From positions 658,682-722,681 of the forward strand of contig NZ_JACICD010000001.1 in assembly GCF_014195655.1 (NCBI RefSeq): a stretch of DNA of 64,000 nucleotides. Direction: 5' to 3'. This document shows positions 2,491 through 21,915 of the stretch, in pieces. The first letter of the stretch is position 1. Every line of letters begins with the position of its first letter. The DNA comes from Ancylobacter tetraedralis. GTDB lineage: Bacteria > Pseudomonadota > Alphaproteobacteria > Rhizobiales > Xanthobacteraceae. A program made the position numbers and the translations under genes. The notes beneath the pieces are model-generated. The model was not told the DNA's origin, did no database searches, and saw nothing but the letters and a program-made list of their open reading frames with translations.

Positions 2491-2518
2491 GCCGCCGCGC
2501 CGTTTCTTATGCGGCGGC
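2491..2518 (+). repeat. Hairpin between rhodanese gene and YeeE gene
   Basis: GCCGCCGC (2491-2498) and GCGGCGGC (2511-2518) form a perfect 8-bp stem with a 12-base loop ending three bases before the chosen ATG of the YeeE gene. In RNA it would cover the region expected to hold the ribosome-binding site. It may attenuate or terminate between the two genes. Confidence 0.4.
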
Positions 2519-2521
2519 TTG

Positions 2522-5222: not shown

Positions 5223-6725
5223 CTATTCCGCGAAGACCTTCTCGCGATTGACCCTTACCGTGGGCAGGATGATGACGATCAGCAGGGCTGCCGCGGCGAT
5301 GAGCAGCACCACGCTGATCGGCTCGCGCACGAACACGGTGGGATCCCCGCGAGAGAGCGTCAGCGCGCGGCGCAGGTTCTCCTCCATCATCGGACCGAGG
5401 ATGAAGCCGAGCAGCAGCGGTGCCGGCTCGAAGCGCAGCGCCACCAGCACGAAGCCCAGGAGCCCGAACACCGCCGCCGCGATCAGGTCGACGGAACTGT
5501 TCGAGACGCTGTAGATGCCGATGCAGCTGAACAGGATGATGGCCGGGTACAGCAGCCGGTAGGGGATGCGCAGCAGCTTCACCCACAGGCCGACCAGCGG
5601 CATGTTGAGCACCAGCAGCATCGCGTTGCCGATCCACATGCTGGCAACCACCCCCCAGAACAGGTCCGGCTCGGTCCTCATGATCTGCGGACCGGGTGTG
5701 ATGCCGTGGATCATCATCGCCCCGACCATGAGCGCCATCACGGCGTTGGACGGCAGGCCGAGTGTCAGCAGCGGGATGAACGAGGTCTGAGCGGCTGCAT
5801 TGTTGGCCGATTCCGGTCCTGCAACACCTTCGATCGCTCCCTTGCCGAAACGGGAGGGGTCGCGTGCCAGTTTCTTCTCCACCGTATAGGATGCGAAGGC
5901 CGAGAGCGCCGCGCCGCCACCCGGCAGCAGGCCGAGCGCCGAGCCGATGATCGAGCCGCGCAGCGCCGGCCCGGCCGACTGGATGAGATCCTGCCGCGTC
6001 GGCATCACCCTTCCGTGCTCGATTATCGTGCCGCCTTCCTTCTCATGCTGCACGAGGATGCGGATGATTTCCCCGATGCCGAACACCCCCATCGCCAGGG
6101 AGACGAAGTTGATCCCGTCGGACATCTCCGGAATGCCGAAGGTGAACCGCAGGTCGCCCGAATTGATGTCCGTGCCGACGAGGCCGAGCAGCAGGCCGAG
6201 GATCACCATCGTCAGTGCTTTCAGCAACGACCCCTGCGCGAGCACAATCGCGCCGACCAGCCCCAGTGTCATGAGGGAGAAGTAATCGGCGGGTCCGAAG
6301 CGAATAGCGACGCTCGCCAGCGCCGGCGCGAACAGGGCAACGACGAAGGTCGCCACCGTTCCTGCGAAGAAAGACCCGAGCGCGGCAATGGCCAGCGCGG
6401 GCCCGGCGCGGCCCTGGCGCGCCATGGCATGACCATCGAGGCAGGTGATCACCGATGAGGTCTCACCCGGCATGTTCAGCAGGATCGACGTTGTTGAGCC
6501 ACCATACTGCGCGCCATAATAAATGCCCGCCAGCATGATCAGCGCCGTGGTCGGTTCCAGCGAAAAGGTGAAGGGAAGCAGCAGCGCGATGGTGACGAGC
6601 GGGCCTACTCCCGGCAGGACGCCGACGAAGGTGCCCAGCAGGACGCCGAGAAAGCAGTAGGCGAGGTTGATCGGCGTCGCGGCAACGACAAAGCCGTGCA
6701 GGACACCATCCCAGATGCTGATCAT
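5223..6725 (-). CDS. tctA: Tripartite tricarboxylate transporter, large membrane subunit TctA
   Basis: A 500-residue integral membrane protein of the TctA family, the large channel subunit of a secondary transporter for tricarboxylates and related organic acids. Family motifs include GVLPGVGPLVTIALLLPF near the N-terminus, MPGETSSVITCLDGHAMARQG, EGVAGPESANNAAAQTSFIP and LTLGLPSNAVMALMVGAMM. About a dozen transmembrane segments are evident. I chose the ATG at 6725, which overlaps the tctB stop by four bases (ATGA). An upstream in-frame start would run through tctB. It is the last gene of a 13-gene operon and works with tctB and tctC of the same operon. Confidence 0.95.
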   Translation of the reverse strand: MISIWDGVLHGFVVAATPINLAYCFLGVLLGTFVGVLPGVGPLVTIALLLPFTFSLEPTTALIMLAGIYYGAQYGGSTTSILLNMPGETSSVITCLDGHAMARQGRAGPALAIAALGSFFAGTVATFVVALFAPALASVAIRFGPADYFSLMTLGLVGAIVLAQGSLLKALTMVILGLLLGLVGTDINSGDLRFTFGIPEMSDGINFVSLAMGVFGIGEIIRILVQHEKEGGTIIEHGRVMPTRQDLIQSAGPALRGSIIGSALGLLPGGGAALSAFASYTVEKKLARDPSRFGKGAIEGVAGPESANNAAAQTSFIPLLTLGLPSNAVMALMVGAMMIHGITPGPQIMRTEPDLFWGVVASMWIGNAMLLVLNMPLVGLWVKLLRIPYRLLYPAIILFSCIGIYSVSNSSVDLIAAAVFGLLGFVLVALRFEPAPLLLGFILGPMMEENLRRALTLSRGDPTVFVREPISVVLLIAAAALLIVIILPTVRVNREKVFAE

Positions 6726-7183
6726 GGAAACGGCCAAAATTTGAACGGCAAGCCGAGGAGCTTGACGAAGACGACGGACGAGGCGAGCGACACACTGATC
6801 GCCAGTGGCACGACTTCCCGCCACTTTGCGTCGCGACTGCCAAGGGCGGCGACGACCACCGTGATGATGCCGGTGACGACGACGCCCAGCGAGCCGACGA
6901 GCAGGGCAAAAAGGATGACGGAACCCAGCACGAGTGCCAGCGGTCGTGCGCCCGCGCGCCCGTCGATGGGCCGGCCCTCCGGCGCCACCAGCGACCGCAG
7001 GGTGACCAGAAGCCCGAGCACCGCGAGCGCCGCGCCGAGCAGCGTGGGCATGTAGCCGGTTCCCATGCGCGCGGCCGTCCCCATGGGGTAATGCGTGGCG
7101 GCGACATAGGAGACGCCGGCGCCGAGCGCGGCGATCAGCAGCCCACCGACGATCTCGTCGCGATTCCTAGTCGTGGCGGACAT
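6722..7183 (-). CDS. tctB: Tripartite tricarboxylate transporter, small membrane subunit TctB
   Basis: A 153-residue protein with four predicted membrane spans (for example LLIAALGAGVSYVAA, LLGAALAVLGLLVTL and ALVLGSVILFALLVGSLG), the usual size and topology for TctB. Its start at 7183 lies inside the last codons of the preceding dehydrogenase gene and its end overlaps tctA by four bases, so the genes are translationally linked. Sequence conservation in TctB is low; the call rests on topology and on its place between tctC-linked genes and tctA. Confidence 0.88.
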   Translation of the reverse strand: MSATTRNRDEIVGGLLIAALGAGVSYVAATHYPMGTAARMGTGYMPTLLGAALAVLGLLVTLRSLVAPEGRPIDGRAGARPLALVLGSVILFALLVGSLGVVVTGIITVVVAALGSRDAKWREVVPLAISVSLASSVVFVKLLGLPFKFWPFP

Positions 7184-8099
7184 GAAGCAGCGTCTCCTGT
7201 GAGGCGGTGTGACCGAGCGCGGCGTCGAGATGGGCGATGGCAAGCGCCAGCGTGGCCGGCTGCTCGCCGCCCAGACTCCGCTTGAGTCCGAGATCGGCCA
7301 GCCCGGCGAGCCGGGCGGAGACGACGCGGCTGACCACCGGGTCGAGGCCGACCTGAGCGATGGTGTCCGCCGATTGGGCGACCTCCAGCGCGCGCCGGCC
7401 GGCGTGTACCCCATGCGAGCGGAGCAGGAAGTCGATGACGTCGCGCGCGCCCTTGCGCTCGAACATCTCGACGAAACTGTCGATCACCTCGCCGTCGAGC
7501 CCGTAACGGCGCGCCGCGACCAGCGATTCGACCAGCAGCGTCTCCAGCCCCTTGGTCAGCACACTGCGCAGGATCTTCACCGCCGCCGCCTGGCCCGGAC
7601 GGTCGCCGACGACGCGGATGTCGAAACCGAACGGCGCAAGTCGCGCCGCCAGTTCCGACGCCGGACCGCCGGCGGCGAGCAGCGGCACACGGTGCAGCCC
7701 GCTGGCCGGCGCACCCATGATGGCGATGTCGACGAAGGCGCGACCCGTCGCGGTGACGATGCCGGCCACCTCCGCCTTGACCGACGGGCCGAGCGAATTG
7801 ACGTCGGCATAGATGACCGACGGCAACAGCGCGGGGATACTGGCCCGCGCCGCCACGGCCGCGGCATCCTGCGTGACGCTGGAGAGGACGATATCGCGGT
7901 CGCCCAGGATCGAAGGCTCGAACGCCAGTCTCACATCGAGCTCGGCCGCGCGCCGCAGCGCGAGTGCCCGCTCGGTCGGGCCGGGAGGATCGTCATAGGC
8001 GACGATATCGACGCCGCCGCCGTCCAGCAGCCCGCGCGTGAAGCTTGAACCGACCTCGCCGAAACCGATGATGCCGATCTTGAGCGGAGCATGGGTCAT
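7167..8099 (-). CDS. NAD(P)-binding dehydrogenase with DUF1932 domain
   Basis: A 310-residue protein built like 6-phosphogluconate/3-hydroxyisobutyrate dehydrogenases. It has an N-terminal Rossmann fold with KIGIIGFGEVGSSFTRGLL and a central segment with FVDIAIMGAPASGLHRVPLL. The C-terminal all-helical DUF1932 domain begins around AAVKILRSVLTKGLETLLVE, where the lysine takes the position of the family's catalytic Lys. It probably oxidises or reduces a beta-hydroxy acid using NAD(P). It starts 7 bp after the upstream RraA-like gene and its end overlaps tctB. The substrate is unknown; the context suggests a branched hydroxy-acid intermediate. Confidence 0.85.
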   Translation of the reverse strand: MTHAPLKIGIIGFGEVGSSFTRGLLDGGGVDIVAYDDPPGPTERALALRRAAELDVRLAFEPSILGDRDIVLSSVTQDAAAVAARASIPALLPSVIYADVNSLGPSVKAEVAGIVTATGRAFVDIAIMGAPASGLHRVPLLAAGGPASELAARLAPFGFDIRVVGDRPGQAAAVKILRSVLTKGLETLLVESLVAARRYGLDGEVIDSFVEMFERKGARDVIDFLLRSHGVHAGRRALEVAQSADTIAQVGLDPVVSRVVSARLAGLADLGLKRSLGGEQPATLALAIAHLDAALGHTASQETLLHVRHD

Positions 8100-8106
8100 C
8101 ACGCGG

Positions 8107-8889
8107 CTACCATTTGCTCGGCGGCAGGATCTTCGCCGCTTCCTGCGGCGAGCGTCCTTCCGCCAGAGCGGCGACCAGCACGCTCTCGCGCGAGGCCGCG
8201 ACTTGCGCCTTCTCCAGCACCGCGCCGGCGATTTCCGGTGGCACGATGATGAGCCCGTCATCGTCGCCCAGCACGAGGTCGCCCGGGCGGATCTGGACGC
8301 CGGCGATGGTGACGGTGCCGTTGAACTCCACCAGTTCGAGCCGATGCTTGCCGGTGCGAGGCGTCACGCTGCGCGACCACACGGCGAGGCCGGAGCGGAC
8401 GATGCTCGCCTTGTCACGCACCGAGCCGTCCACGACGATGCCGGCCAGCCCCTTGGCGTGCGAGGCGGTGGCGAGCAGGCCGCCGAAGCTGGACGCATCG
8501 ATGCCGCCGCCGCCATCCACCACGAACACGTCGCCAGCGCGTGTCAGCGTGATCTGATCGATGCCGCCACCGCGCGGCTTCTCGCCATTGACCAGCGCAT
8601 GACCCGCGAGGCGGCGTGCCCGCGACTGGCGCGCGGTGACCGCCGGACCGACGATGCGCTGGCCGGTGGCCAGGGGGCGCAGCGTCAGGGAGGGCACGGC
8701 GGTGTCGTAGCCGAACTCGTCGAGTATGTCGGCCACCATGGAGGTGAGATCGGGCAGCGCGAGGTAGCCGGCGATGATCGCCGGGTCGAAGCGCTCGATC
8801 TCGACCTGGCGGATGAGGCGGGGATCCAGATTGCCGACCAGACGGTCGGCATAGGGCCGGAGCTGCTCAAGAATGATGTCGGTGGACAT
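8107..8889 (-). CDS. RraA/HMG-aldolase family protein (divergent paralogue)
   Basis: A 260-residue member of the RraA-like superfamily, which includes 4-hydroxy-4-methyl-2-oxoglutarate/4-carboxy-4-hydroxy-2-oxoadipate aldolases. The metal and substrate motif VVDGSVRDKASIVRSGLAVW contains the conserved Arg158-Asp159, and the later loop reads PGDLVLGDDDGLIIVP. It carries about 40 more N-terminal residues than the two other RraA paralogues in this window (9961-10638 and 19724-20398) and is only distantly similar to them. It is cotranscribed with the DUF1932 dehydrogenase and a Bug binding protein. Aldolase or oxaloacetate-decarboxylase-like activity is the likely role. The RNase E inhibitor function is unlikely given the catabolic context. 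Confidence 0.85.
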   Translation of the reverse strand: MSTDIILEQLRPYADRLVGNLDPRLIRQVEIERFDPAIIAGYLALPDLTSMVADILDEFGYDTAVPSLTLRPLATGQRIVGPAVTARQSRARRLAGHALVNGEKPRGGGIDQITLTRAGDVFVVDGGGGIDASSFGGLLATASHAKGLAGIVVDGSVRDKASIVRSGLAVWSRSVTPRTGKHRLELVEFNGTVTIAGVQIRPGDLVLGDDDGLIIVPPEIAGAVLEKAQVAASRESVLVAALAEGRSPQEAAKILPPSKW

Positions 8890-8916
8890 GGTGTCTTCCT
8901 TCGACTGCGGCTTGGG

Positions 8917-9909
8917 TCACTGGGTCTGGATGTTCGCGGTGGCGACGACCTGCTTCCACTGCTCGTAGCCGCGGCGGATTTCGGCCTCGAACTCGGCCGG
9001 AGTCGAATTCACCAGCGTCATGCCCGCCTTGTCGGTCACAGCGAGGTAGGACGGGTCCTTGGCGAGGTCGACGATGGCGGTATTCAGCTCCTTGACGACG
9101 GCATCCGGCGTGGAGGCCGGGCCCAGCAGGCCGAGCCAGGAGCGAGAGACGAAGGCGTTGACGCCCGCTTCCTCAATGGTCGGGATATCAGGAGCGAACT
9201 TGCTGCGCTCCGCCGTGGCGACGCCGAGGGGGCGTATCTCGCCGCTCTTGAAATAGGGCAGCGAGGTGCTGAGCACGAGGAAGCCGACCTGAATGCGCTT
9301 GCCGAGCAGTTCCGCGATGATCTCGCCCTGGCCCTTCAGCGGCACATGCACGATGTCAATGCCGGTGAGCTGCTGCAGATAGGCGGTGTTGAGATGCTGG
9401 CCGGACCCGATGCCGGCCGTGCCATAGTTGAATTTGCCGGGATTGGCCTTGATGTAGGCGAGAACCTCCTTGAGGTCCTTGCCCGGCAGCGCCGGATCGA
9501 CCGCCAGCACGCTCGCCTGATCGGCCACCAGCACGATCGGCTTGAAGTCCTTGAAGATGTCGTAGCGCAGCTTGGTGTTCAGCGCCGGCACGGTGACGTG
9601 GTTCGAGGAGGTGAACAGGAAGGTGTGGCCATCGGTCGCCCGCGCGACATATTCCGTGCCGACCGCCGCCCCGGCGCCGGGGCGGTTCTCCACCACGAAG
9701 GACTGGCCGAACTTTTTCGACAGCTTGTCGGCGAGTTCGCGGGCGAGCAGGTCGGTGCCACCCCCCGGCGGGAAGGGCACCACAAGCTTTACCGGCTGGG
9801 TCGGCCAGGACTGCGCGAAGGCCGGCGCGCCGGCCGCAGCGATCCCCGAGGCGACGATGCCAGAGGCCAGAAGCAGCGCCAGACGCCGCAATAATTTTAT
9901 CTTTTCCAT
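8917..9909 (-). CDS. tctC: Bug/TctC family periplasmic binding protein
   Basis: A 330-residue exported solute-binding protein. The signal peptide covers about residues 1-32 (KIKLLRRLALLLASG, cleavage near AFAQS). Bug-family motifs are clear: PVKLVVPFPPGGGTDLLARE, FVVENRPGAGAAVGTEYVAR, YGTAGIGSGQHLNTAYLQQ and DIPTIEEAGV. As tctC of the operon that also encodes TctB and TctA, it should capture the organic acid and hand it to the membrane subunits. Bug proteins bind carboxylates through the N-terminal pocket. The ligand cannot be predicted, but the flanking RraA aldolases point to a hydroxy- or oxo-dicarboxylate. Confidence 0.93.
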   Translation of the reverse strand: MEKIKLLRRLALLLASGIVASGIAAAGAPAFAQSWPTQPVKLVVPFPPGGGTDLLARELADKLSKKFGQSFVVENRPGAGAAVGTEYVARATDGHTFLFTSSNHVTVPALNTKLRYDIFKDFKPIVLVADQASVLAVDPALPGKDLKEVLAYIKANPGKFNYGTAGIGSGQHLNTAYLQQLTGIDIVHVPLKGQGEIIAELLGKRIQVGFLVLSTSLPYFKSGEIRPLGVATAERSKFAPDIPTIEEAGVNAFVSRSWLGLLGPASTPDAVVKELNTAIVDLAKDPSYLAVTDKAGMTLVNSTPAEFEAEIRRGYEQWKQVVATANIQTQ

Positions 9910-9960
9910 AGAAAAACTTCCTAATTTGCCAAATTGAGCCAGCGCCCGCTGGCCGCGCGA

Positions 9961-10638
9961 TCAGATCTCGATGTCGATACCCTTGCGCCGCAGGATCGCT
10001 GGACCGAACAGATCCCAGGTCGTGATCGCACCACTTGCGAGCCGAGCCCGCAGCGCCGTTTCCTTCTCCGAACGCTGCTGGGCGACCTCGGCCACCCAAT
10101 CGATGTCGGCGAACGGGATCACCACGACGCCGTCATCGTCGCCAATGATGAGGTCGCCCGGGTGGACCTCCACCCCACCGACCACGATCGCCTCGGCAAG
10201 CGGGCCGAAGTAATCCTTGTCGCCCCGGCTCTTGAGGCTGAGCCCCCGCGCGAAGACCGGCAGGTCGCTCTCACGCAGGATGTTGCCGTCGCGCGCCGCG
10301 CCATCGATCAGCACGCCGGCGATACCGCGTTGCAGGGCGGCCTCGGCCATGACGTCGCCGAACGCCGCGCCCTCGGTGAACGCCTCGGCCGAATAGACGA
10401 TCACGTCGCCGCGCTTGGCGAGCGCGAGGGCGGCATGGCCCGTGAGATTGTCGCCCGGCTTGCCCTTGGCGGTGAAGGCCGGACCGAGCAGGCGCAGGCC
10501 CTTGCGGATGGGCTTGATGGCGTGATGCAGCGCGCCGCGTCGGCCGAACGCCTCATGCGCCGTCGCGGTGCCAATATCGGCGAAGGCGGCGATCTGCGCC
10601 GGGGTAGGGCGAGGAAAGTCGGGAGCGAACTTCGTCAT
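9961..10638 (-). CDS. RraA/HMG-aldolase family protein
   Basis: A 225-residue RraA-like protein, the typical length for 4-hydroxy-4-methyl-2-oxoglutarate aldolase relatives that cleave a C4-hydroxy-2-oxo acid to pyruvate and a keto acid. Landmarks are the N-terminal TAHEAFGRRGALHHAIKP, the loop AAFGDVMAEAALQRGIAGV, the Arg116-Asp117 pair in IDGAARDGNI, and PGDLIIGDDDGVVVIP. It is closely similar along its whole length to the protein at 19724-20398, so one arose by duplication of the other. It sits 19 bp after the ketopantoate-reductase-like gene in the long operon. Confidence 0.88.
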   Translation of the reverse strand: MTKFAPDFPRPTPAQIAAFADIGTATAHEAFGRRGALHHAIKPIRKGLRLLGPAFTAKGKPGDNLTGHAALALAKRGDVIVYSAEAFTEGAAFGDVMAEAALQRGIAGVLIDGAARDGNILRESDLPVFARGLSLKSRGDKDYFGPLAEAIVVGGVEVHPGDLIIGDDDGVVVIPFADIDWVAEVAQQRSEKETALRARLASGAITTWDLFGPAILRRKGIDIEI

Positions 10639-10657
10639 TGGAGTATCCTCGAAGGGG

Positions 10658-11755
10658 TCAGACAGCGTGGGCGGGCTGGTCGGTCCCGCGACTGGCGAAA
10701 CTCAGCAGCAGCGCGGGATGCGGCTTGGCGCGGCCCGCTTCAATCTCGCGCACCACGGCGCGCACATGTTCATTGGCCGGCACCGCGACGCCCACCTCGC
10801 GCGCACGGGCGATGACGAGGCCGTAGATCTCCTCCACCTCGGTCGGGCGCCCCTTGGCGACGTCCTGCCCCATGGAGGGGCGCTGGGCGTCGCTGCGCGC
10901 CTTGGTGGCGAGGGCCGCCGCCAGCAGCGCCTCCTCAACCTTGGCCAGCGCCGCGCCATCACCCTCGTCGGCGCGCGCATAGAGCGTCGCCGGCACCGGG
11001 CCGATGGACTCCAGCGCGAACCCCAGCCGCTCGCCGACGCGGATCGCCTCGCCGGCGACCTTGATCCCGAACCGGCGCAGCGCGGGGTCGCGATCCAGCG
11101 CGTTGATCGACAGGCCGCTGGCGGCCGACACGCCGTTGCGCATGGCGTTGGCGGCGAGCTTGGACCAGCGTTCTCCGGCCAGATTGGTGGTGACCTTGAC
11201 CGAATCCACCTTGCGCAGCAGCGCGCCCAGCGCCTCGATCCGTTCGGTGAGACGGCCATCGGGTTCACCGACGCGGAACACGTCGATGCCCGGGCTTCCG
11301 CGCGGCACCATGCGCTGCACATGGCCGGGCCCGTCGAGTTCCACGCCGATCCGCGCGGCGATCAGCCCGGCGACCCGCCCGTGCCCCACCACCTCGCCGA
11401 TGACGTCCTCATTGATGCCGTTCTGGGCCGAGACGACCAGCGCGCCCGGCGCCAGGAAGGGCCGGATCCGCTCGGCCGCGTGGCGCGTGGCGTAGGATTT
11501 CACGGCGATGAAGGTGAGGTCGATCGCCGGCCCTTCGCCAAGCCGGCCGATCTCGCTCTCATGCAGCATGGTGACGGGGATGGCGGCGGTCTCCTCCGGC
11601 GCCATGCCGTCGACGCGGAAGCCATACGCGCGCACCGCCGCGACATGGGCGGCCCAGCCGTCGACCAGCGTCACGTCCTCGCCCGCCGCCGCGAGCTGGG
11701 CGCCGATATAGCCGCCGACCGCACCGGCGCCGATGATTGCGATACGCGGCGCCAT
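10658..11755 (-). CDS. Ketopantoate reductase (PanE/ApbA)-like NADP-dependent reductase
   Basis: A 365-residue two-domain oxidoreductase. The Rossmann nucleotide motif is IAIIGAGAVGGYIGAQLAAA at the N-terminus. The ketopantoate-reductase hallmarks follow: TFIAVKSYAT, SAQNGINED, a lysine in KVTTNLAGERWSKLAANAMR, and the C-terminal RPSMGQDVAKGRPTEVEE. A typical PanE is about 300 residues and this group is longer, so a catabolic 2-oxo/2-hydroxy acid reductase is more likely than pantothenate synthesis. It begins one base after the binding-protein gene stop. A paralogue lies at 23993-25069. ATG 11755 was preferred because the longer upstream start would overlap that stop. Confidence 0.85.
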   Translation of the reverse strand: MAPRIAIIGAGAVGGYIGAQLAAAGEDVTLVDGWAAHVAAVRAYGFRVDGMAPEETAAIPVTMLHESEIGRLGEGPAIDLTFIAVKSYATRHAAERIRPFLAPGALVVSAQNGINEDVIGEVVGHGRVAGLIAARIGVELDGPGHVQRMVPRGSPGIDVFRVGEPDGRLTERIEALGALLRKVDSVKVTTNLAGERWSKLAANAMRNGVSAASGLSINALDRDPALRRFGIKVAGEAIRVGERLGFALESIGPVPATLYARADEGDGAALAKVEEALLAAALATKARSDAQRPSMGQDVAKGRPTEVEEIYGLVIARAREVGVAVPANEHVRAVVREIEAGRAKPHPALLLSFASRGTDQPAHAV

Positions 11756-11756
11756 C

Positions 11757-13358
11757 TCAGGCCCCGTTCTCGAGCCAGACATCCTTCAGTCCGCTGAAGG
11801 CCTGGTCGGGCGTGTCGGGGATGCCCCGCAGACGCTTGCTGTAGACCGTCAAACGCTGCAGCTCGAACAGCGGAATGTTCGGCAGGTCGGTCATGGCAAT
11901 CTTCTGCCAGCCCTCGAAAGCCGCCAGACGCTGGGCCGGATCCGGGTTGCTCTGGGTGATCTCGATCAGCTTGTCGAGTTCGGGGTTGGAGTAGCGCGCG
12001 CCATTGGTGTTGGGCACGCCCTTGGCGATGGATTTGGTCCAGTAGAGCCGGTAGAGGCCCATGGCCGGGTCGATCATCGCCGAGAACTGGCCGGCGCGGG
12101 TCTGGAAGTCGTAGTCGGTGTAGACGCGCTTGTAGAGGGTGGGCGTGTCCTGCGAGCGCAACTTGAGATCGATGCCGACCTGCTTGAGGTTCTGCCGGAG
12201 GAATTCGGCAGTGTTCTGCAGCGCATCCGTGTTCGATTCATAATCGAAGAAGATCGAGAAGCGCACGCCGCCGTCCTTGCGCGGGAAGCCCGCCTCGTCG
12301 AGCAGCGCGTTCGCCTTGGCCGGATCGAACGGATAGGCCGGCAGATTCTTCGAGAAGTACTTCTGGTAGTGCGGGATCGGGCTGGTGGCGACCGTGCCGA
12401 AGCCGTACCACGCCGCGTCGATCAGCCCCTGCTTGTCGATGGCATGGGCGATGGCCTGGCGCACCTTCACATTGCCGGTGATGGCGTCCTGGGTATTGAA
12501 CTCGAAGGTGAAGATGGGCGAGAGCCACTCATAGCCCTGCGTGGTGAAGGCGAGCTTGGGATCCTGCTTCAGACGGGCGATGTCGGCCAGCGGCACGGGA
12601 TCGAACGGGCCATACTGCACCTCGCCCACCTCGAAGGCGGCCGCGCGGGATGCGGCATCCGGGATGATGCGGAAGATCAGCTTGTCGACATACGGCTTGC
12701 CGGCATCCCAATAGTCCGGATTGCGCTCGAACTCGATGTATTCGCCCTTGTTCCAGCGCACGAAGCGGAACGGCCCGGTGCCGATCGGCTTGAGGTTGGC
12801 GGGGTTCTTGGCAGGCTCCGACCCGGCATAGATATGGGCCGGCAGCACCTGCGATTCCGCGGCGCTGAGGGCGCCCAGAATGATCGGCGAGGATTGCGAC
12901 AGGCGCAGCACCGCGGTCCGCTCGTCCGGCGTTTCCACGTCGGTCACGCTGGCGAAGGTGGTCCGCCCGCGCGGGTGGAGCTTTTTCCAGAGCTCCAGCA
13001 CGCTATAACGCACGTCCTTGGAGGTGAAGGGCGTGCCGTCATGCCATTTCACGCCGGGGCGCAGCTTGAAGGTGATGGAGAGGTTGTCCGGCGCGACCTC
13101 CCAGCTCTGGGCGAGGCTCGGCAGCGGCTGCATCGCGTGGTCGTAGCTTAGCAAGCCGTCATAGACGTTGGGCGAGACGACGTTGACCGAATAATGATTG
13201 CTCACCGCGCTGGTGAGCACGGTCGGCTCGGGGTTGATCACCGCCACCAGCGTGCCGCCCTTGAGGGGGCCGGCCGCGTGCACGGCGCCGCTGAACGCCG
13301 GCGCGACGGCCGAGCCCAGCAGCAGGGAGAGGAATGTACGACGTTCGATCGCGATCAC
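11757..13358 (-). CDS. Dipeptide/oligopeptide-type ABC transporter substrate-binding protein (SBP_bac_5)
   Basis: A 533-residue family-5 binding protein. A twin-arginine-like leader (AIERRTFLSLLLGSA, cleavage near AVHAAG) directs export. The mature protein contains the family pattern around LAQSWEVAPDNLSITFKLRP and GVKWHDGTPFTSKDVRYS, then GPFRFVRWNKGEYIEFERN. The start is a GTG at 13358 preceded by an AGGAG ribosome-binding site; no ATG fits the leader. It belongs with the ABC permeases and ATPases at 14604-18278, from which it is separated by the SfnB-like gene. Family members bind peptides, glutathione, opines or nickel complexes, so the ligand is open. Confidence 0.92.
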   Translation of the reverse strand: MIAIERRTFLSLLLGSAVAPAFSGAVHAAGPLKGGTLVAVINPEPTVLTSAVSNHYSVNVVSPNVYDGLLSYDHAMQPLPSLAQSWEVAPDNLSITFKLRPGVKWHDGTPFTSKDVRYSVLELWKKLHPRGRTTFASVTDVETPDERTAVLRLSQSSPIILGALSAAESQVLPAHIYAGSEPAKNPANLKPIGTGPFRFVRWNKGEYIEFERNPDYWDAGKPYVDKLIFRIIPDAASRAAAFEVGEVQYGPFDPVPLADIARLKQDPKLAFTTQGYEWLSPIFTFEFNTQDAITGNVKVRQAIAHAIDKQGLIDAAWYGFGTVATSPIPHYQKYFSKNLPAYPFDPAKANALLDEAGFPRKDGGVRFSIFFDYESNTDALQNTAEFLRQNLKQVGIDLKLRSQDTPTLYKRVYTDYDFQTRAGQFSAMIDPAMGLYRLYWTKSIAKGVPNTNGARYSNPELDKLIEITQSNPDPAQRLAAFEGWQKIAMTDLPNIPLFELQRLTVYSKRLRGIPDTPDQAFSGLKDVWLENGA

Positions 13359-13389
13359 GGGTCGCTCCTGTTCGTTTGATGGCGGTGCG

Positions 13390-14607
13390 TCAGGCGTTGG
13401 CGACCGGCGGCGCGATGCCGTCGAGGTACCAGGCACCCAGTCCCTTCGCGCGATAGGCCAGCGGGTCATGGGTGGTGTGGGTGCGGGCGTTGCGCCAATG
13501 GCGGTCGTAATTGGCGTCGGCGCGGGTGATCGACGCGCCGCCGACCTCGTAGAGCGTCTCGGACGTGCTCAACGCCACCTCGGCCGCGAAGATCTTGATC
13601 TCCGACACGCCGGCGGCCGCCTCGGCGACCAGCCGCTCCAGCGCCGCCCCCTCGACGCCGCGCGCGGGAGCATCCGCCACGCGGTCGATCAGATCGGCGG
13701 TGTGCAGGAATAGCGCCTGTGCCGCATGTGCCCGGGTCGCGATCTTGCCGATGGCGTGCTGGATGAACGGATCCTCCGCGGCACGCACGACGCCGCTCTC
13801 GCGCACCGTGCGGGCTCGGCTGCGGGCATAGGTGACTGAATCGTCCAGCACAGCGAGGCCGATGCCCACTTCCAGCCCCGCATGCAGCAGGTGGACCCCC
13901 GCATCGGTGTAATCGCGCGGCAAGCCATGCCAGCCGGCCGAGCTCATGATCTCGCTGTCAAGGACCAGAACATTCTCCAGCTCGGTCGTGCCGCTGGCCG
14001 TGGTGCGCTGGCCCATCCCGTCCCAGTCGTCGAGCAGGCGGATGCCATCACGCTCGCGCGGGATCAGCACCGCGACGCGTTCGCCGTCCGGCGTGATCGC
14101 GGTGACGCGCAGATGCTGGGCGAACAGGCTGCCGGTCGAATAGTATTTCCGCCCGTTCAGCCGCCAGTTCGCACCGTCCCGCGTCAGCGTCGTGGCGACC
14201 GCGCCGCGCACCGAGCCACCGAGTTCGGCATTGGCGACGCCGAACAAATCCCCCGCCACCACCCTCGCGAAGAAGTGGCGCTTCTGCTCCTCCGTACCAT
14301 GCAGCGCCAGCCGCTCGACCGAGGTGATATGCGGGATGAAGCCCTGTGCGACGTTGGTGTCCGCCTTGGAGAGCAGCAGATAGACCTCGGCGACCTGCCG
14401 CCAGCTGGCCTCCAGCCCGCCATAGCGGCGCGGGACACGCAATGCGCCGAGCCGACTGTGCCGAATCTCCTCGAACGCCTCGTAGGGCAGGATGTGTTCG
14501 CGGTCACGACGGGCGGCGTCGCGGGCGATGTCGTCGGCGAGTGCGCGGGCGACAGCCACGACGTCAATGTGGTCGCGCGTCAGCGCAACGGGGGAAGCGG
14601 CTGTCAT
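13390..14607 (-). CDS. SfnB/DszC-like acyl-CoA-dehydrogenase-fold flavin oxidoreductase
   Basis: A 405-residue protein with the acyl-CoA dehydrogenase fold. It resembles the SfnB sulfur-acquisition oxidoreductases and DszC-type FMNH2-dependent monooxygenases more than true acyl-CoA dehydrogenases. Visible features: IRHSRLGALRVPRRYGGLEA, VAQGFIPHITSVERLALHGT, GVANAELGGSVRG, LNGRKYYSTGSLFA, and DDWDGMGQRTTASGTTELEN. The usual catalytic glutamate region of acyl-CoA dehydrogenases is not apparent. Its ATG overlaps the upstream ATPase gene (ATGA), so it is part of the transporter operon. This suggests oxidation, perhaps C-S cleavage, of the imported compound using reduced flavin. The sulfur link is inference from family and context. 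Confidence 0.82.
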   Translation of the reverse strand: MTAASPVALTRDHIDVVAVARALADDIARDAARRDREHILPYEAFEEIRHSRLGALRVPRRYGGLEASWRQVAEVYLLLSKADTNVAQGFIPHITSVERLALHGTEEQKRHFFARVVAGDLFGVANAELGGSVRGAVATTLTRDGANWRLNGRKYYSTGSLFAQHLRVTAITPDGERVAVLIPRERDGIRLLDDWDGMGQRTTASGTTELENVLVLDSEIMSSAGWHGLPRDYTDAGVHLLHAGLEVGIGLAVLDDSVTYARSRARTVRESGVVRAAEDPFIQHAIGKIATRAHAAQALFLHTADLIDRVADAPARGVEGAALERLVAEAAAGVSEIKIFAAEVALSTSETLYEVGGASITRADANYDRHWRNARTHTTHDPLAYRAKGLGAWYLDGIAPPVANA

Positions 14608-15590
14608 GCGGGTACGAGTCCTTCTTGGAGGCAAAGCGACGAAACCTGGGATGTCTCGTGGAGGTGGCACGCGACCGCGCGCCCCTCGCCGGCGACGCGC
14701 AGCTGCGGAACCGCATGTCGACAGCGCGCCTGCACGAGCGGGCAGCGCGGATGAAAGGCGCAGCCGGTGGGCGGGTTGAGCGGGCTCGGCAATTCGCCGG
14801 TCACCACGGGCCTGTTCGCGATCCGGTGAGTACGCGGGCTGATGACCGGTACGGCCGCCAGCAACGCCTGTGTATAGGGATGAGCCGGTGCGGCCAGCAC
14901 GTCGGCATGCGTACCGGTCTCGACGATCCGGCCGAGATACATGACCGCCACGCGGTCGGCCATGTGCTGGACGACACCGATATCGTGACTGACGAACAGG
15001 TAGGCGAGCTTGTATTCCTGCTGCAGGTCAACCAGCAGGTTCAGAACCTGCGCCTGCAGCGATACGTCGAGAGCGGAGACCGGCTCGTCGAGCACCAGAA
15101 GCTCGGGTCCGCAGGCGAGCGCGCGGGCGATCGCGGCGCGCTGGCGCTGGCCGCCGGACAGCTCATGCGGGTAACGGTCTTTCAGCGAGGCCGCGAGCCC
15201 GACCTGATCCATCAGCGAAGCAACCCGGCGCGCGCGGGCGGCGCCATTGGCCTGCGTGGTCCGCAATGGCTCCTCGATGATCCGGGTCATGTCAAAGCGC
15301 GGATCGAGCGAGGACGCCGAGTCCTGGAACACCATCTGCAATTTGCGACGATAGGGCAGCAGGGCCCGTCCCTTCAGGCGGGCGATGTCGATCCCGTCGA
15401 TGCGAATCGCGCCACGGGCGACATCGGTGAGCCGCATCACGGCACGTGCGAGCGAGGACTTGCCGCAGCCGGATTCGCCCACCAGCCCGAGCGTCTCGCC
15501 GCGCCCGACCGCGAGGTCAACGCCTCGCACGGCCCGCACCGTGCCGCCATGCGAGCGGTAATCGACGTCCAGTCCCTGGATCTCGAGCAT
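14604..15590 (-). CDS. Oligopeptide/dipeptide ABC transporter ATP-binding protein, DppF/OppF-like
   Basis: A 328-residue ATPase with Walker [10 protein letters not shown] (about residue 38), Q-loop [11 protein letters not shown], signature LSGGQRQR, Walker [13 protein letters not shown] and H-loop [14 protein letters not shown]. The C-terminal oligopeptide-transporter extension carries the cysteine-rich [12 protein letters not shown], which in relatives can hold an Fe-S cluster. It partners the ATPase encoded by the next upstream gene; their stop and start codons share one base (TGATG). Together they energise the permeases DppB and DppC. Confidence 0.93.
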
Positions 15591-16435
15591 CAGCCGGCAA
15601 ACTCCCCGCTATCGACCAGCTCGGGCAGGCGTGGACGCGGCCCGAAGCGGGGGCGCGGCTGGGGACGCGCGGCGATCAGTCCGCGGCTATAGGGATGGCG
15701 CGGCGCCTCGAAGAAAGGAATGACGGGCTGTTCCTCGACGGCCTGCCCGTGACGCATCACCAGCACGCGGTCCGCCGTTTCCGACACGACCGCGAGGTCA
15801 TGTGTGATCAGCAGCAGCGCCATGCCGTTCTCGTTCTTGAGCTCCAGCAGCAATTGGAGGATCTGCGCCTGGATCGTCACGTCGAGTGCGGTGGTCGGCT
15901 CGTCGGCGATCAGCAGGGCCGGCCGCTGGGCCAGCGCAAGGGCGATGACGACGCGCTGGCGCATACCGCCCGACAGACGGTGCGGATATTCCCCGAGCCG
16001 CTGGCGCGGTGCGGGAATGCGCACGCGCTCCAGCAGGTGCAGGGCGTAATCGGCCGCCTCGCGTCGGCTGACGGGGCGATCCGCGCGGATCGCCTCGACG
16101 AGCTGCGCGCCGATGGTCATCACCGGGTTGAGCGAGGTGAGCGGATCCTGAAACACCATGGCGATGGGCGCGCCGCGATGCTTGCGGCGCTGGCGCGGGG
16201 TGAGGCCCAGGACCTCCTGCCCGGCGAGGCGGGCCGATCCGCCGATCCGCGCGGAGGGCAGCAGCCCCATCAGGCTGAGGCCGGTCACCGTCTTGCCGCA
16301 GCCGGATTCGCCGACGAGGGCCAGTGTTTCGCCCGGGGCGATGTCGAAGGACAATCGCTCCACGGCGGAGACGACACCCCGTGCGGCGGCAAAGCCGATC
16401 GACAGCTCGCGGACCTCCAGCAGCGACGGGCTCAT
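15590..16435 (-). CDS. Oligopeptide/dipeptide ABC transporter ATP-binding protein, DppD/OppD-like
   Basis: A 281-residue ATPase: Walker [13 protein letters not shown]-loop [11 protein letters not shown], signature LSGGMRQR, Walker [14 protein letters not shown]-loop [16 protein letters not shown] chose the ATG at 16435, which overlaps the permease stop by four bases. Longer readings would run far into the permease gene. It is somewhat short at the C-terminus compared with typical OppD (about 320 residues), lacking most of the extra cysteine-containing tail seen in its partner. Confidence 0.93.
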
Positions 16436-17301
16436 GCGTCGCCTCCGCGGAGTTCGCCCGCGCTCGTCCGGCGCACGCGCATGCGCGGGTTCAGCAGGTC
16501 CGCCACGCCCCCACCCAGCAGCACGAAGCCCATGACGGCGACAAAGATGGCAAGGCCGGGCAGCGCGGTGAGATACCAGGCGGTGCGCAGCAGCGGGCGG
16601 GCATTGCCGATCATGCTGCCCCAGGAGATCGTGTTGGGATCGCCGAGACCGAGAAAGGCGAGTGCGGCCTCGACCAGAATGGCGTGGGCGACCACGGCGG
16701 AGACCATGACGATCACCGGAGCGAGGCTGTTCGGCAGAATATGCGTGGCGATGATCCGGGCGTGGCCGAGGCCCATCGTCTCGGCGGCCAGCACATAGTC
16801 GGCGCGCCGGATTCGAAAGACTTCCGCGCGGGTCAGCCGCGCGATCTCGGGCCACGCTGTCAGCCCGATGGCCAGTGTGACGCTGCCGATGGACGGCGCC
16901 AGCACGGCCACCAGCACCATGGAGAACAGGAAAGTCGGGATGGTCTGGAAATACTCGCTGAGCCGGGTCAGCGCATCGTCGAGGCGGCCGCCCGCGTAAC
17001 CGGCGAGCGCTCCGACACTGACGCCGATCATCGTCGCGAGGATCGCGGCGCCGACGCCGATCGAGAGCGAAACGCGCGCGGCATGGCAGAGCTGGGCCGC
17101 GACGTCGCGGCCGAGCTGATCAGTCCCCAGGGGGAAGGCCGCATCGCGCAATGGCCAGAGCGAGCGAGGCCCGACCATGGCCATCGGATCGCCGGGATAG
17201 AGGACGCCGGCTCCCGTAGCGACGCCTGCCAGAGCCAGCAGCAGCGCCAGCCCGACGAGGGCAGAGGGGTTTGTACGCGCGAGGGCGATGAACCTGCTCA
17301 T
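16432..17301 (-). CDS. Dipeptide-type ABC transporter permease, DppC-like
   Basis: A 289-residue inner-membrane permease. An N-terminal membrane segment (ALVGLALLLALAGVATGAG) is followed by the periplasmic loop ending in LGTDQLGRDVAAQLCHAARV, a hallmark of DppC/OppC. The BPD transport core follows, with the coupling-helix region AEVFRIRRADYVLAAETMG. Start and stop codons overlap the neighbouring genes by four bases each. It pairs with the DppB-like permease to form the translocation channel. Confidence 0.93.
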   Translation of the reverse strand: MSRFIALARTNPSALVGLALLLALAGVATGAGVLYPGDPMAMVGPRSLWPLRDAAFPLGTDQLGRDVAAQLCHAARVSLSIGVGAAILATMIGVSVGALAGYAGGRLDDALTRLSEYFQTIPTFLFSMVLVAVLAPSIGSVTLAIGLTAWPEIARLTRAEVFRIRRADYVLAAETMGLGHARIIATHILPNSLAPVIVMVSAVVAHAILVEAALAFLGLGDPNTISWGSMIGNARPLLRTAWYLTALPGLAIFVAVMGFVLLGGGVADLLNPRMRVRRTSAGELRGGDA

Positions 17302-18278
17302 GACGCCAGCTCGACCCGCGGGTCGAGCACCCCATAGAGAAGATCGATGACAAGGCTCATGACGATCACGAGCAGCGAATTGCACAGGAACAGGCTGAGC
17401 AGCAGGTTGATGTCGCGGTCGCTCACCGCCTCGAAGGCAAGGCGCCCCATGCCGGGCCAGGAGAACACGGTCTCGACGACGACCGCGCCGCCAAGCACCG
17501 AGCCGAGCTGCAGGCCGCTCAGCGTGACCACGGGAAGCAGCGCGTTGCGCAGCACATGGCGAATGGCAATGCGCGCCTCGGATATCCCCTTCGCCCGCGC
17601 GGTGCGCACATAGTCGAGGTCGTAGACCTCGCCCATCGCGGCCCGCGTCACCCGCGCATAAAGGGCGAGATAGGCCAGGCTCAGCGTCGAGGCCGGCAAA
17701 ACCAGATGATAGGCAATATCACCGACGGCGCCGAGCACGCCCGGAGGGCCGCCGATCTGCGTCATGCCGCCGAGGGGAAACCAGCGCAGCTGCACGGCAA
17801 ACAGTACGATGGCCATGAGGCCGATCCAGAACACGGGCGTGGCGAAAACCACGGCGGCGAAGACTGACACCGCCTGATCGACCAGCCCGCCGCGAAAGCG
17901 CGCGGCCAATGCGCCGAGCAGCAGCCCGAGGCCGACAGCCAGGGCGACCGCCGCGCCGATGAGCAGCAAGGTCGCCGGCAGCCGGTCCAGGATGAGCTGG
18001 GAGATCGGCATGTTGTGGCGGAAGGAGTAGCCGAGATCGAAGTGCCCCAGCTGCCGGACATAGGCGAGGAACTGCGCCCAATCCGGCCGGTCGAGCCCGA
18101 ACTGGGCGCGCAGCATGTCCATATATTCGGGAGACGCGGCACCGCCTTCACCGGCGATGACGTCGACGAGATCTCCCGGAATCGCTTTCAGCAAGATAAA
18201 ATTCCCTAGCATTATCAATTCAATAACGGGAATTGTCTGCGCCAGGCGGCGAAGCGTGTAGGTGGCGAGCGGAGGCAA
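17298..18278 (-). CDS. Dipeptide-type ABC transporter permease, DppB-like
   Basis: A 326-residue permease and the first gene of the 13-gene minus-strand operon. It has the DppB N-terminus (TYTLRRLAQTIPVIELIML), the large periplasmic loop with RAQFGLDRPDWAQFLAYVRQ, and the EAA/coupling motif in YVRTARAKGISEARIAIRHV. Six membrane spans are expected. The 228-bp divergent region upstream holds several dyads that could bind a regulator. Confidence 0.93.
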   Translation of the reverse strand: MPPLATYTLRRLAQTIPVIELIMLGNFILLKAIPGDLVDVIAGEGGAASPEYMDMLRAQFGLDRPDWAQFLAYVRQLGHFDLGYSFRHNMPISQLILDRLPATLLLIGAAVALAVGLGLLLGALAARFRGGLVDQAVSVFAAVVFATPVFWIGLMAIVLFAVQLRWFPLGGMTQIGGPPGVLGAVGDIAYHLVLPASTLSLAYLALYARVTRAAMGEVYDLDYVRTARAKGISEARIAIRHVLRNALLPVVTLSGLQLGSVLGGAVVVETVFSWPGMGRLAFEAVSDRDINLLLSLFLCNSLLVIVMSLVIDLLYGVLDPRVELAS

Positions 18279-18506
18279 AGCTGAGTGACCCGATTTAGTC
18301 TATATGAATTATGTTATATTGATTGAACCGGTCGGTGTCTAGCGCTATAAGCGATGTCGTCCGGCGCGGGAGGCAAAAGACGCTGGAGGTGGCACGCCAC
18401 ATCTCCAATTCGCGATCATGCGGAATTAATTGATCAAGTTGAGGCCGGCATCATTCCCTAATTTGATGCAGGACGTCGATCGATTGATTCAATTTTTGCT
18501 CAATGG
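18279..18506. promoter_or_regulatory. Divergent promoter region between the transporter operon and the dehydratase operon
   Basis: This AT-rich spacer should contain both promoters. It holds an imperfect 22-bp dyad beginning CTATATGAATTATG near 18301, a perfect TTGATCAA palindrome at 18430-18437, and a perfect ATTGA-T-TCAAT dyad at 18483-18493 just before the dehydratase start. Spaced dyads like these are typical of GntR/FCD- or IclR-type catabolic repressors. No regulator gene lies inside the cluster, so the binding protein is unknown. Confidence 0.5.
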
Positions 18507-19712
18507 ATGAGAAATATAGTGAAGATAGCGCGCGTAGAGGCGTTTCTATACAATCCAGGCACCGCTAAGAATCTTCTATTTGTTCGAATCGAGACAGATA
18601 GCGGGCTTCACGGCTGGGGCGAATCTTATGTGAGCGGCAAGAAGGAGAAGGTGGTCGATGGCTACCTGCAGTCCATCGCGCCGCTGATCGTTGGGCGGGA
18701 CGTGTTCCACCTGCGCCATCTCGGGCAGGTGCTGCTGGACGATTTCGCGATTCGGCGCAGCTCCGTGGACTTTCTGGCCGCCTGGAGCGCGATCGAGATC
18801 GCCTCCTGGGACATTATCGGCAAGGCTGCCGGCCTGCCGGTCCATAAGCTGCTCGGTGGCGCGGTCCGCGAGAAAATCCGTGTCTATGCCAATGGTTGGT
18901 GGTTCGGTGCCAAGGGTGTCGATGAGACGGTGTCCCGCGCCGTCGAGGTCGTTCGTCAGGGCTATGACGCCATCAAGTGGGATCCCATTCCCGGCCCGTG
19001 GCGCAACTTCATCTCCCGCGCCGACGAGAACGAGGCCGTCGCCCATGTGAAGGCGATGCGCGAGGCGGTCGGCCCGAATGTGGAGCTGCTGGTCGACGGC
19101 CATCGCCGTCTCGCCCCGGTCCATGCCATCCGTCTGGCCGAGCGCTTCGCGGAGTATGACATCGGCTGGTACGAGGAGCCCTGCCCGCCCGACAACATCG
19201 ACCTCACCGCCCAGGTGAAGCGCTCGACGCATATTCCCATCGTGGTCGGGGAAGCGATCTACACCAAGGAAGGCTTCCTTCCGGTGTTCCAGAAGCAGGC
19301 GGCCGACATCATCAACCCCGACATCTGCGCGGTCGGCGGCCTGTCCGCCATGCTGGACATCGCGACGCTCGCCGCACCGCATGCCGTGGGGGTCAGTCCG
19401 CACAATTTCAACAGCCCGATCGTCGGTCTGGCCGCGACGGTCCAGCTGTCGGCACTGATCACCAATTTCACCATCGCCGAACTGTTCGTGAACCTGATCG
19501 AGCCGACCCGGCCGATCACAGCGCAAGGCCTGAACATCGAGGCCGGCTGGGTCGATCTGCCGACCACTCCCGGCCTTGGCATCGACCTCGACCGCGAGGA
19601 GCTGCTCAAGCGCCCCTATGCCGAACTGCCGGGCAAGAATTTGCGCCATTACTGGGAGGAGTTCCCGCGCAAGGGAGCCGTCTCCGCCCAGCCCTTCACG
19701 CTTCCCGCCTGA
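18507..19712 (+). CDS. Mandelate racemase/muconate lactonizing enzyme family dehydratase (enolase superfamily)
   Basis: A 401-residue enolase-superfamily enzyme. The metal ligands of the barrel are Asp197 in LLVDGHRR, Glu223 in YEEPCPPDN and Glu249 in VVGEAIYTK; His299 in VSPHNFNSP is the probable acid/base partner. The second-strand motif is YDAIKWDPI, without the KxK pair of mandelate racemase, which fits acid-sugar dehydratases such as galactonate dehydratase. It likely removes water from a 2,3-dihydroxy acid to give a 2-oxo acid, the type of compound RraA/HpaI aldolases cleave. ATG 18507 has a poor ribosome-binding site; a GTG at 18519 is a possible alternative. It is followed after 11 bp by an RraA gene. 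Confidence 0.9.
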   Translation: MRNIVKIARVEAFLYNPGTAKNLLFVRIETDSGLHGWGESYVSGKKEKVVDGYLQSIAPLIVGRDVFHLRHLGQVLLDDFAIRRSSVDFLAAWSAIEIASWDIIGKAAGLPVHKLLGGAVREKIRVYANGWWFGAKGVDETVSRAVEVVRQGYDAIKWDPIPGPWRNFISRADENEAVAHVKAMREAVGPNVELLVDGHRRLAPVHAIRLAERFAEYDIGWYEEPCPPDNIDLTAQVKRSTHIPIVVGEAIYTKEGFLPVFQKQAADIINPDICAVGGLSAMLDIATLAAPHAVGVSPHNFNSPIVGLAATVQLSALITNFTIAELFVNLIEPTRPITAQGLNIEAGWVDLPTTPGLGIDLDREELLKRPYAELPGKNLRHYWEEFPRKGAVSAQPFTLPA

Positions 19713-19723
19713 CGAGGCCTCCT

Positions 19724-20398
19724 ATGTCCAAGATCAACCGTGATTTTCCGCGCCCGACCGCCGCGCAGATCGAGGCGTTTCGCGCCATCGGCGCGGCGAC
19801 CGCCCACGAAGCCTTCGGCCGCAGGGGAGCTGTCGATTCCGCCATCAAGCCAACCTATCCCGGCATTCGGATCCTGGGTCCAGCCTTCACGCTGAAGTCG
19901 CCGCCCGGTGACAATCTCACCCTTCATGCCGCGCTGAAGCTGGCCAAGCCCGGCGACGTGCTGGTGGTCGACGCCGGCGACTATCCCGAGCAGGGCTCGT
20001 TCGGCGATGTCATGGCGACATCCGCCAAGGCCCTTGGTCTGGCTGGCCTCGTCACCAATGGTGGCGTGCGCGATGCCGCCAGCATCCGCGACCTTGGCTT
20101 TCCGATCTTCACCCGTGCCGTGTCGATCCGCGGCACCATCAAGGAATCCCTCGGGCCCCTCGCCGAGCCGATCGTGTTCGGCGGCATCCATGTGAATCCG
20201 GGTGATCTCGTGATCGGCGATGATGACGGGCTGGTCATCATCCCGCTCGCCGAGGTCGATGCGGTGCTGGACGTCGCCACCAAGCGCGAGGCGAAGGAGG
20301 CCGGCATCCGGGCCGAACTCGCCAAAGGCCGCACCACCTGGGACATCAGCAATTTCAATGCGCTGCTCAAGCGCAACGGCCTAGATCTCGAGATCTGA
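19724..20398 (+). CDS. RraA/HMG-aldolase family protein
   Basis: A 224-residue paralogue of the protein at 9961-10638, colinear throughout. It shares the N-terminal FPRPT.AQIEAF pattern, ATAHEAFGRRGAVDSAIKP, and GSFGDVMATSAKALGLAGLV. Arg116-Asp117 lie in TNGGVRDAAS, followed by PGDLVIGDDDGLVIIP and the C-terminal GLDLEI. Probable class II pyruvate aldolase or oxaloacetate decarboxylase acting on the product of the dehydratase encoded just upstream. It lies in the plus-strand operon dehydratase - RraA - AhpD. Confidence 0.88.
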   Translation: MSKINRDFPRPTAAQIEAFRAIGAATAHEAFGRRGAVDSAIKPTYPGIRILGPAFTLKSPPGDNLTLHAALKLAKPGDVLVVDAGDYPEQGSFGDVMATSAKALGLAGLVTNGGVRDAASIRDLGFPIFTRAVSIRGTIKESLGPLAEPIVFGGIHVNPGDLVIGDDDGLVIIPLAEVDAVLDVATKREAKEAGIRAELAKGRTTWDISNFNALLKRNGLDLEI

Positions 20399-20414
20399 CA
20401 CAAGGAAACCGACC

Positions 20415-21910: not shown

Positions 21911-21915
21911 TGCGC

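Follow-up and report, generated by a model that had tools for sequence, protein, structure and literature searches.

What does a bacterium do with two complete import systems encoded in a single run of genes? The question is raised by a 64,000-nucleotide stretch of Ancylobacter tetraedralis DNA (contig NZ_JACICD010000001.1, positions 658,682 to 722,681; hereafter the window), in which thirteen consecutive open reading frames on the minus strand, from 18278 to 5223, encode a Dpp-type ABC importer, a Tct importer and a set of putative enzymes (Table 1). We hold, with about even confidence, that they belong to an undescribed cluster that would import an organic acid and cut it to pyruvate. The run makes up some two thirds of a catabolic island, 5223-25069, that was probably acquired by horizontal transfer. 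Gene content, its conservation, the module borders, the active-site residues and motifs and the complementary presence of two reductases are directly observed. The parts are all of known families; their combination is undescribed in the literature searched. This agrees with the original prediction, which knew of no pathway of this composition: none was found in the open-licence literature, searched partly with narrow terms.

The run is compact. From dppB onward, with the chosen starts, the junctions measure -4, -4, -1, -4, 31, 1, 19, 51, 27, 7, -17 and -4 bp, i.e. six overlaps and six gaps, and the predicted maximum of 51 bp (9910..9960) holds. Pfam and NCBIfam models bear out the gene families as named beforehand: two Dpp-type permeases, two ATPases, a family-5 binding protein (SBP5), an ApbA/KPR protein (KPR1), two RraA proteins, TctC, DUF1932, TctB and TctA. 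The flavoenzyme is only SfnB-like, because it stays below the TIGR04022 cut-off (361.4 versus 430.9). TctA, TctB and TctC are all above their Pfam cut-offs, making up a tripartite tricarboxylate transporter. For DppB, DppC, DppD, DppF and SBP5, no NCBIfam cut-off for a dipeptide, nickel or oligopeptide system is passed among the matches listed (for the ATPases, the best 25). A longer DppD frame, reaching 16855, is a start artefact, the model matches starting at about residue 142-147. KPR1 passes TIGR00745, a membership that does not imply a substrate. A sigma-70-like consensus scan of 4500-19000 gives no site between 5173 and 18210, which is weak evidence on the unity of the transcript, and none of 4227 Rfam families reaches its gathering score in window positions 1-30000.

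The same genes are grouped in other genomes. A tblastn search of 72,556 plasmid records with KPR1 leads to Azospirillum argentinense and Azospirillum sp. TSH58, whose plasmids carry, by annotation, an operon-like DppBCDF-SBP5-KPR-RraA set and, divergent from it, MR_MLE-RraA-AhpD-TctC-RraA-DUF1932-TctB-TctA; a third plasmid is alike. In the Azospirillum plasmid loci L035 and L036, each of the 15 genes of both operons has an orthologue in the window (40-79% identity, lowest for TctB). Since the orthologues of 12 of the 13 genes of the run, all but SfnB, are grouped there, the gene content of the run is not due to chance, and the co-occurrence elsewhere on which the original prediction was to stand or fall is found, SfnB apart. 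Identities are 62% over the full length for DppB (L035), 69-71% for SBP5 in Azospirillum and Serratia, 59-65% for KPR1 in relatives, and 59-74% for AhpD in the Azospirillum-plasmid, A. brasilense and enterobacterial clusters. The unit does not end at 18278, where it had originally been drawn to end: the divergent trio of MR_MLE, RraA3 and AhpD (18507-21026) is part of the same gene set. KPR2 probably is too, because the Serratia and Symbiopectobacterium clusters contain its orthologue (62% in Serratia, 60-65% in three Symbiopectobacterium loci, in two pieces in L053).

Scanning genome contigs with an MR_MLE alignment gives 70 loci; the scan needs two short peptide patterns, so that relatives without them are missed. 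Fifteen loci are proteobacterial (at least 60% identity), including Serratia, Symbiopectobacterium, Azospirillum, Bosea, Pseudothauera, Alcaligenaceae and Mesorhizobium; eight are clostridial (49-53%) and 47 distant. At E ≤ 1e-12 over at least half of the query, RraA lies near MR_MLE in all 15 proteobacterial and seven of the eight clostridial loci (22 of the 23 orthologues), and in none of the 47 distant ones, of which only 32 are at least 15 kb, so that this absence is partly limited by length. The clostridial loci, for which one representative of each protein cluster was scanned, also contain DUF1932 (six of eight), TAXI/TRAP-type genes (five) and LacI regulators (five). The Clostridia groups concerned are anaerobes; if the carriers are too, the core needs no oxygen. 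Among the plasmid records, RraA2 (E ≤ 1e-30) and MR_MLE (E ≤ 1e-90) match the identical seven, three from Azospirillum and four from Shinella, and since these are only two genera, few independent events stand behind them. At E ≤ 1e-120, MR_MLE is found in none of the other 120 of 121 genomes of the nearest relatives (at most 15 candidates per genome were scored); the gene set is accessory in the organism's own neighbourhood.

Aldolases of the RraA family reportedly carry a metal motif given by Mazurkewich in 2014 as D-X20-R-D or G-X20-R-D-X2-E/D. By these letters, RraA1 and RraA3 have D-X20-R-D, and RraA2 fits neither motif: it reads G-X20-R-D-X2-S, and its relatives of at least 44% identity that cover the last site have S, T, N or A there. 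The predicted structure of RraA2 (260 residues) has the RraA fold, with a pLDDT of 90.2. PMC5065237, in part of its text, gives two motifs for RraA-type aldolases. In a tree of 68 of the 76 RraA proteins collected (those below 190 or above 360 residues were dropped), RraA1, RraA2 and RraA3 of the window each fall in a seven-row set with the A. brasilense group and enterobacteria, the enterobacterial rows varying slightly among the sets owing to broken copies. RraA1 forms its own clade (99/100) and falls with the RraA3 kind. Because the same carrier groups recur for all three, it seems that a single lineage of the cluster, the one equipped with Dpp, KPR1 and RraA1, has passed between classes.

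Judged by gene order, the run is a joining of two modules, Dpp and Tct, because Azospirillum keeps these halves as divergent operons; their seam is the 51-bp gap that separates RraA1 from TctC1, because other genomes arrange the modules differently. The Tct block is placed after AhpD in Azospirillum; between it and the Dpp genes, Serratia and Symbiopectobacterium have AhpD and KPR2 on the opposite strand. The Serratia order RraA1-TctC1-RraA2-TctB-TctA is that of the window minus DUF1932. The original prediction's view of two importers in one transcript as the essence of the system is not supported, the importers being in separate operons in Azospirillum and interrupted in Serratia and Symbiopectobacterium. 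The Dpp half is optional, since DppB is found in seven of the 15 proteobacterial loci within the fetched DNA. The separate halves in Azospirillum, and the eight of 15 loci without DppB, would also suit two independent operons for unrelated acids, adjacent by chance and each with its own importer. This is unlikely: the full add-on (Dpp, SBP5, KPR1 and RraA1) adjoins the core in the window, in the A. brasilense group and in Serratia/Symbiopectobacterium, and the RraA tree keeps the same carrier groups for all three proteins and places RraA1 with the RraA3 kind. Relatives of Dpp/SBP5, but no KPR1 or RraA1, lie within the fetched DNA of Bosea L044 and Pseudothauera L045.

Only in the window is SfnB found inserted between DppF and SBP5. 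DppF, SBP5 and KPR1 are consecutive without it in Azospirillum and in Serratia/Symbiopectobacterium, it is found in none of the 15 proteobacterial relatives within the fetched DNA, and 11 of the 13 genomes of these relatives that were searched give no match at E ≤ 1e-30. It is therefore no member of the conserved set, in which the original prediction had placed it. The same absences count against sulfur acquisition, in which an organosulfur acid would be imported, SfnB would cleave or oxidise its sulfur group and the skeleton would pass to the dehydratase and aldolase genes; nor is any sulfur-specific family above cut-off among the neighbours of the enterobacterial and clostridial clusters, scanned for a subset of reading frames. 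We consider this explanation improbable, but several circumstances favour it, beginning with the position of SfnB inside the run. To the left of tctA lie a rhodanese (1512-2444), a Sulf_transp/YedE-like gene (2489-3712) and a serine-acetyltransferase-like frame (4143-4550, 135 residues, below cut-off). Directly to the right of KPR2, at 25180-26586, an Rrf2-family regulator sits between two genes for single-domain rhodaneses; its best equivalog, below cut-off, is CymR, and it could exert sulfur-responsive control. About 10 kb to the left of the window (L116, G000:C1 640000-659000), a second SfnB-like gene (38%) lies near luciferase-like monooxygenases and NMT1-type ABC genes and binding proteins. 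SsuA/TauD genes adjoin the A. argentinense cluster, and molybdopterin oxidoreductases lie near Bosea, Mesorhizobium and Shinella clusters (L044:525-2915, L047:13794-16106, L048:13608-15950, L109:18358-20718), of which the one in L044 comes closest to the bisC family of S/N-oxide reductases without reaching the cut-off. A Sodalis plasmid combines two SfnB genes with Dpp/SBP5, another MR_MLE and a rhodanese.

The original prediction had also proposed that the ABC system imports a conjugate and Tct its released acid. Three observations fit, short of proof: the Dpp half is optional; an amidase and a second Dpp set adjoin the cluster in three Azospirillum plasmids; and on the Sodalis plasmid the nearest plasmid SfnB homologues (44 and 46%) stand alongside a related Dpp/SBP5 importer. 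With the Azospirillum amidase and second Dpp set, the Sodalis SfnB and AgaA, the nearest solved relative of SBP5, in its favour, a conjugate may enter the pathway through the Dpp half.

By family, the core would make up an acid-sugar-type set of dehydratase, aldolase and reductase. The MR_MLE active site consists of D197, H199, E223, E249, D272, H299 and E325, all kept in orthologues. These residues have the D-x-H, E, E, D, H, E spacing of galactonate dehydratases, compared through the residue numbers of E. coli DgoD, with the last interval differing by one, and the protein scores best with gluconate and galactonate dehydratase models. DUF1932 is present in 11 of the 15 proteobacterial loci, and the other four (L039, L040, L042 and L053, all enterobacterial) have a KPR2 orthologue; in the seven genomes tested of the 15 with loci, the two are mutually exclusive, with matches below 40% and the KPR1 cross-match set aside. 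This exclusion between lineages suggests that DUF1932 and KPR2 do the same job, a suggestion weakened by the presence of both in the window.

We infer the reactions, their order, the substrate class and the use of a conjugate as follows. TctC1 with TctBA would import a hydroxy- or polyhydroxy-carboxylate, which MR_MLE would dehydrate to a 2-keto-3-deoxy acid. RraA3, whose motif is that of a metal-dependent pyruvate aldolase, would cut this acid into pyruvate and a second oxo compound, to be reduced by DUF1932 or KPR2. RraA2, having neither aldolase metal motif, may act in an additional step as a lyase, dehydratase or decarboxylase. The add-on of Dpp with SBP5, KPR1 and RraA1 would import a larger derivative and convert it to the core acid, and SfnB, inserted in the add-on here, would perhaps liberate the acid by oxidation from a compound linked through sulfur or nitrogen. 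More tentatively, and with rather more doubt than belief, we picture an undescribed dehydratase-to-RraA-aldolase pathway spread by horizontal transfer across alpha-, beta- and gammaproteobacteria, with its core also in Clostridia (some from gut samples), RraA2 as founder of a subfamily with a new, non-aldolase reaction, and, in the window, Dpp/SfnB as a conjugate-importing oxidative front end. Pantoate degradation, suggested by KPR and the amidase, was dropped as it leaves MR_MLE without a role.

Several points weigh against the dehydratase-aldolase reading. MR_MLE is below every NCBIfam cut-off listed (224.5 versus 311 for the galactonate dehydratase model NF010624). Its dehydration reaction is not certain, because its closest solved structures, about 33% identical, are mostly without assigned function, and some relatives at 31-32% are titled cycloisomerases. 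RraA3 falls short of the LigK/PcmE model TIGR02798 (203.6 versus 304.5), passing the looser NF006731 (218 versus 179), and the RraA3-like proteins of Clostridia have D-X20-R-D in only two of seven loci (L058 and L060), although each of the other five has an RraA with E there. One clostridial locus, L054, near a contig end, has no RraA. The importers are less specific to the MR_MLE loci than RraA: TctC, TctA and DppB are in 14, 10 and 7 of the 15 proteobacterial loci versus 2, 2 and 6 of the 47 distant ones. A search for RraA2 in 398 genomes of the phylum and 385 of the class (draws that overlap; up to six candidates scored per genome, so that misses are possible) finds only the window and genome G187, whose 34% relative has no MR_MLE in 19.9 kb. 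The window carries both DUF1932 and KPR2, which could serve different steps, and no DUF1932 enzyme with known activity turned up in this analysis.

A further explanation is an aromatic ring-cleavage endgame, in which MR_MLE would be the cycloisomerase, AhpD/CMD the decarboxylase and RraA the CHA aldolase, acting on a ring-opened aromatic acid. RraA3 does pass the CHA-aldolase model NF006731, small CMD proteins adjoin RraA3 in L046, L050 and L051, and the solved relatives of the Bug protein include terephthalate-binding ones. Yet the scanned window genes include no ring-cleavage dioxygenase, the models nearest to MR_MLE are for sugar-acid dehydratases, the nearest structures bear the title putative dehydratase, and close versions of the cluster occur in Clostridia, making this explanation very unlikely.

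Among known systems, the dehydratase-aldolase reading is closest in layout to the E. coli gar/gud route for D-glucarate and galactarate (aldarates), which uses a dehydratase, a pyruvate aldolase and tartronate-semialdehyde reductase. Both have an enolase-superfamily dehydratase, a metal-dependent pyruvate aldolase, a reductase of hydroxyacid-dehydrogenase type and a carboxylate importer, and the HpcH/HpaI aldolase extra to the window is nearest to GarL-type models. Here, however, RraA takes the place of the aldolase, DUF1932 or KPR that of the reductase and Tct (plus Dpp) that of the importer; gluconate/galactonate models give the dehydratase its best scores, and two further RraA proteins and AhpD have no gar/gud counterpart. 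With HMG/CHA aldolase the cluster has in common the RraA fold, D-X20-R-D in RraA1 and RraA3, and the passing of NF006731 by RraA3; it differs in that no ring-cleavage or OMA hydratase genes are among the scanned window genes, RraA3 is below TIGR02798 and RraA2 is without the motif. RraA2 resembles by description FlDet, an RraA-family 2-keto-3-deoxyglucarate dehydratase/decarboxylase of about 27 kDa (PMC8563752, in part of its text), in being an RraA-family protein for which a non-aldolase reaction in sugar-acid breakdown is proposed; unlike the window, FlDet is set there in an alginate context, without an MR_MLE or Tct partner. Neighbourhoods of arylmalonate decarboxylase (AMDase), in proteobacterial accessory regions, have a similar transporter mix (TTT, TRAP and peptide/nickel-type ABC genes) and an MR/MLE gene, according to part of PMC4996985, in whose main text the words aldolase and menaquinone are absent (RraA was not among the terms). 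In contrast, domain scans recognise no arylmalonate decarboxylase among the genes in 5223-25069; a pattern composed for this enzyme gives 121 matches versus 162 expected and is uninformative.

Table 1. Features of the island, in window positions, with the basis of each assignment (L numbers denote loci of relatives).
Feature	Positions	Strand	Basis
TctA	5223..6725	-	TctA 3e-158; 78-79% in L035, L036, L039
TctB	6722..7183	-	Pfam; 40-43% in Azospirillum
NAD-binding/DUF1932 dehydrogenase	7167..8099	-	Pfam; 63-65% in L035/L036
RraA2, G-X20-R-D-X2-S	8107..8889	-	Motif, conserved subfamily, predicted RraA fold
TctC1/Bug binding protein	8917..9909	-	TctC 8e-63; 77% in Azospirillum and Serratia
Gap, 51 bp, seam of Dpp and Tct modules	9910..9960		Modules separate in L035/L036/L118
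RraA1, D-X20-R-D type	9961..10638	-	Family model and motif
KPR1, ketopantoate-reductase family	10658..11755	-	TIGR00745 167.9 versus cut-off 141.35
SBP5, family-5 solute-binding protein	11757..13358	-	SBP_bac_5 1e-93 (scanned as longer frame to 13469)
SfnB/DszC-like flavoenzyme, acyl-CoA-dehydrogenase fold	13390..14607	-	TIGR04022 361.4 bits
DppF-type ATPase with oligo_HPY domain	14604..15590	-	Domain models; Azospirillum orthologue
DppD-type ATPase	15590..16435	-	Domain models; Azospirillum orthologue
DppC-type ABC permease	16432..17301	-	BPD_transp_1; 75% to Azospirillum L035
DppB-type ABC permease, first gene of run, TTG start	17298..18278	-	BPD_transp_1 5e-42
Divergent intergenic region, dppB/MR_MLE	18279..18506		Equivalent divergent pair in Azospirillum
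MR_MLE, acid-sugar dehydratase-like enzyme	18507..19712	+	Models, active-site residues, solved relatives
RraA3, HMG/CHA-aldolase-like, D-X20-R-D	19724..20398	+	NF006731 218 versus cut-off 179
AhpD/CMD 'peroxidase-related' protein	20415..21026	+	TIGR01926 152.1 versus cut-off 81.8
HpcH/HpaI aldolase, window extra	21095..21928	-	Nearest model 2-dehydro-3-deoxyglucarate aldolase, below cut-off
TctC2/Bug protein, window extra	21916..22884	-	Family match
TctC3/Bug protein, window extra	22921..23889	-	Family match (scanned as longer frame to 23919)
KPR2, ketopantoate-reductase family	23993..25069	+	TIGR00745 172.3 versus cut-off 141.35

The divergent promoter region stands out in composition, with 49% G+C at 18213-18506 against 68% for the run. 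The intergenic regions 18279-18521 and 23890-23992 have a local similarity of score 34, equalled or exceeded in one of 300 shuffles, which may mark a common operator; a pattern made from them has no match in the window. The idea of one operator shared between the window's divergent promoter regions and five regions of relatives was rejected: the best 14-mer has 20 total mismatches, and four of 20 shuffles do equally well. A MobA/VirD2-type relaxase with DUF3363 (26994-29126) adjoins the island, fitting a mobile origin. A fourth RraA type, G-X20-R-D-X2-E, recurs in clusters without a DppB match (L046:17315, L047:4688, L048:16144, L049:15287, L051:18344, L109:20816, L111:18816). In Symbiopectobacterium, RraA2 is in pieces in L042 and L053, and in L053 so are KPR2, MR_MLE, RraA3 and TctC1, a decay expected in insect-associated lineages; a reading frame adjoining a Symbiopectobacterium cluster (L040:12138-12854) matches a Pfam Pertussis_S1/enterotoxin A-type domain.

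If the dehydratase-aldolase reading is true, a whole pathway of soil, plant-associated and gut bacteria would be opened to study. Functions would come within reach for DUF1932 and for a motif-less RraA subfamily whose members are now named aldolase or RNase regulator in databases, and the cluster would show how modules such as an importer or an oxidase add-on are exchanged around a single catabolic core.

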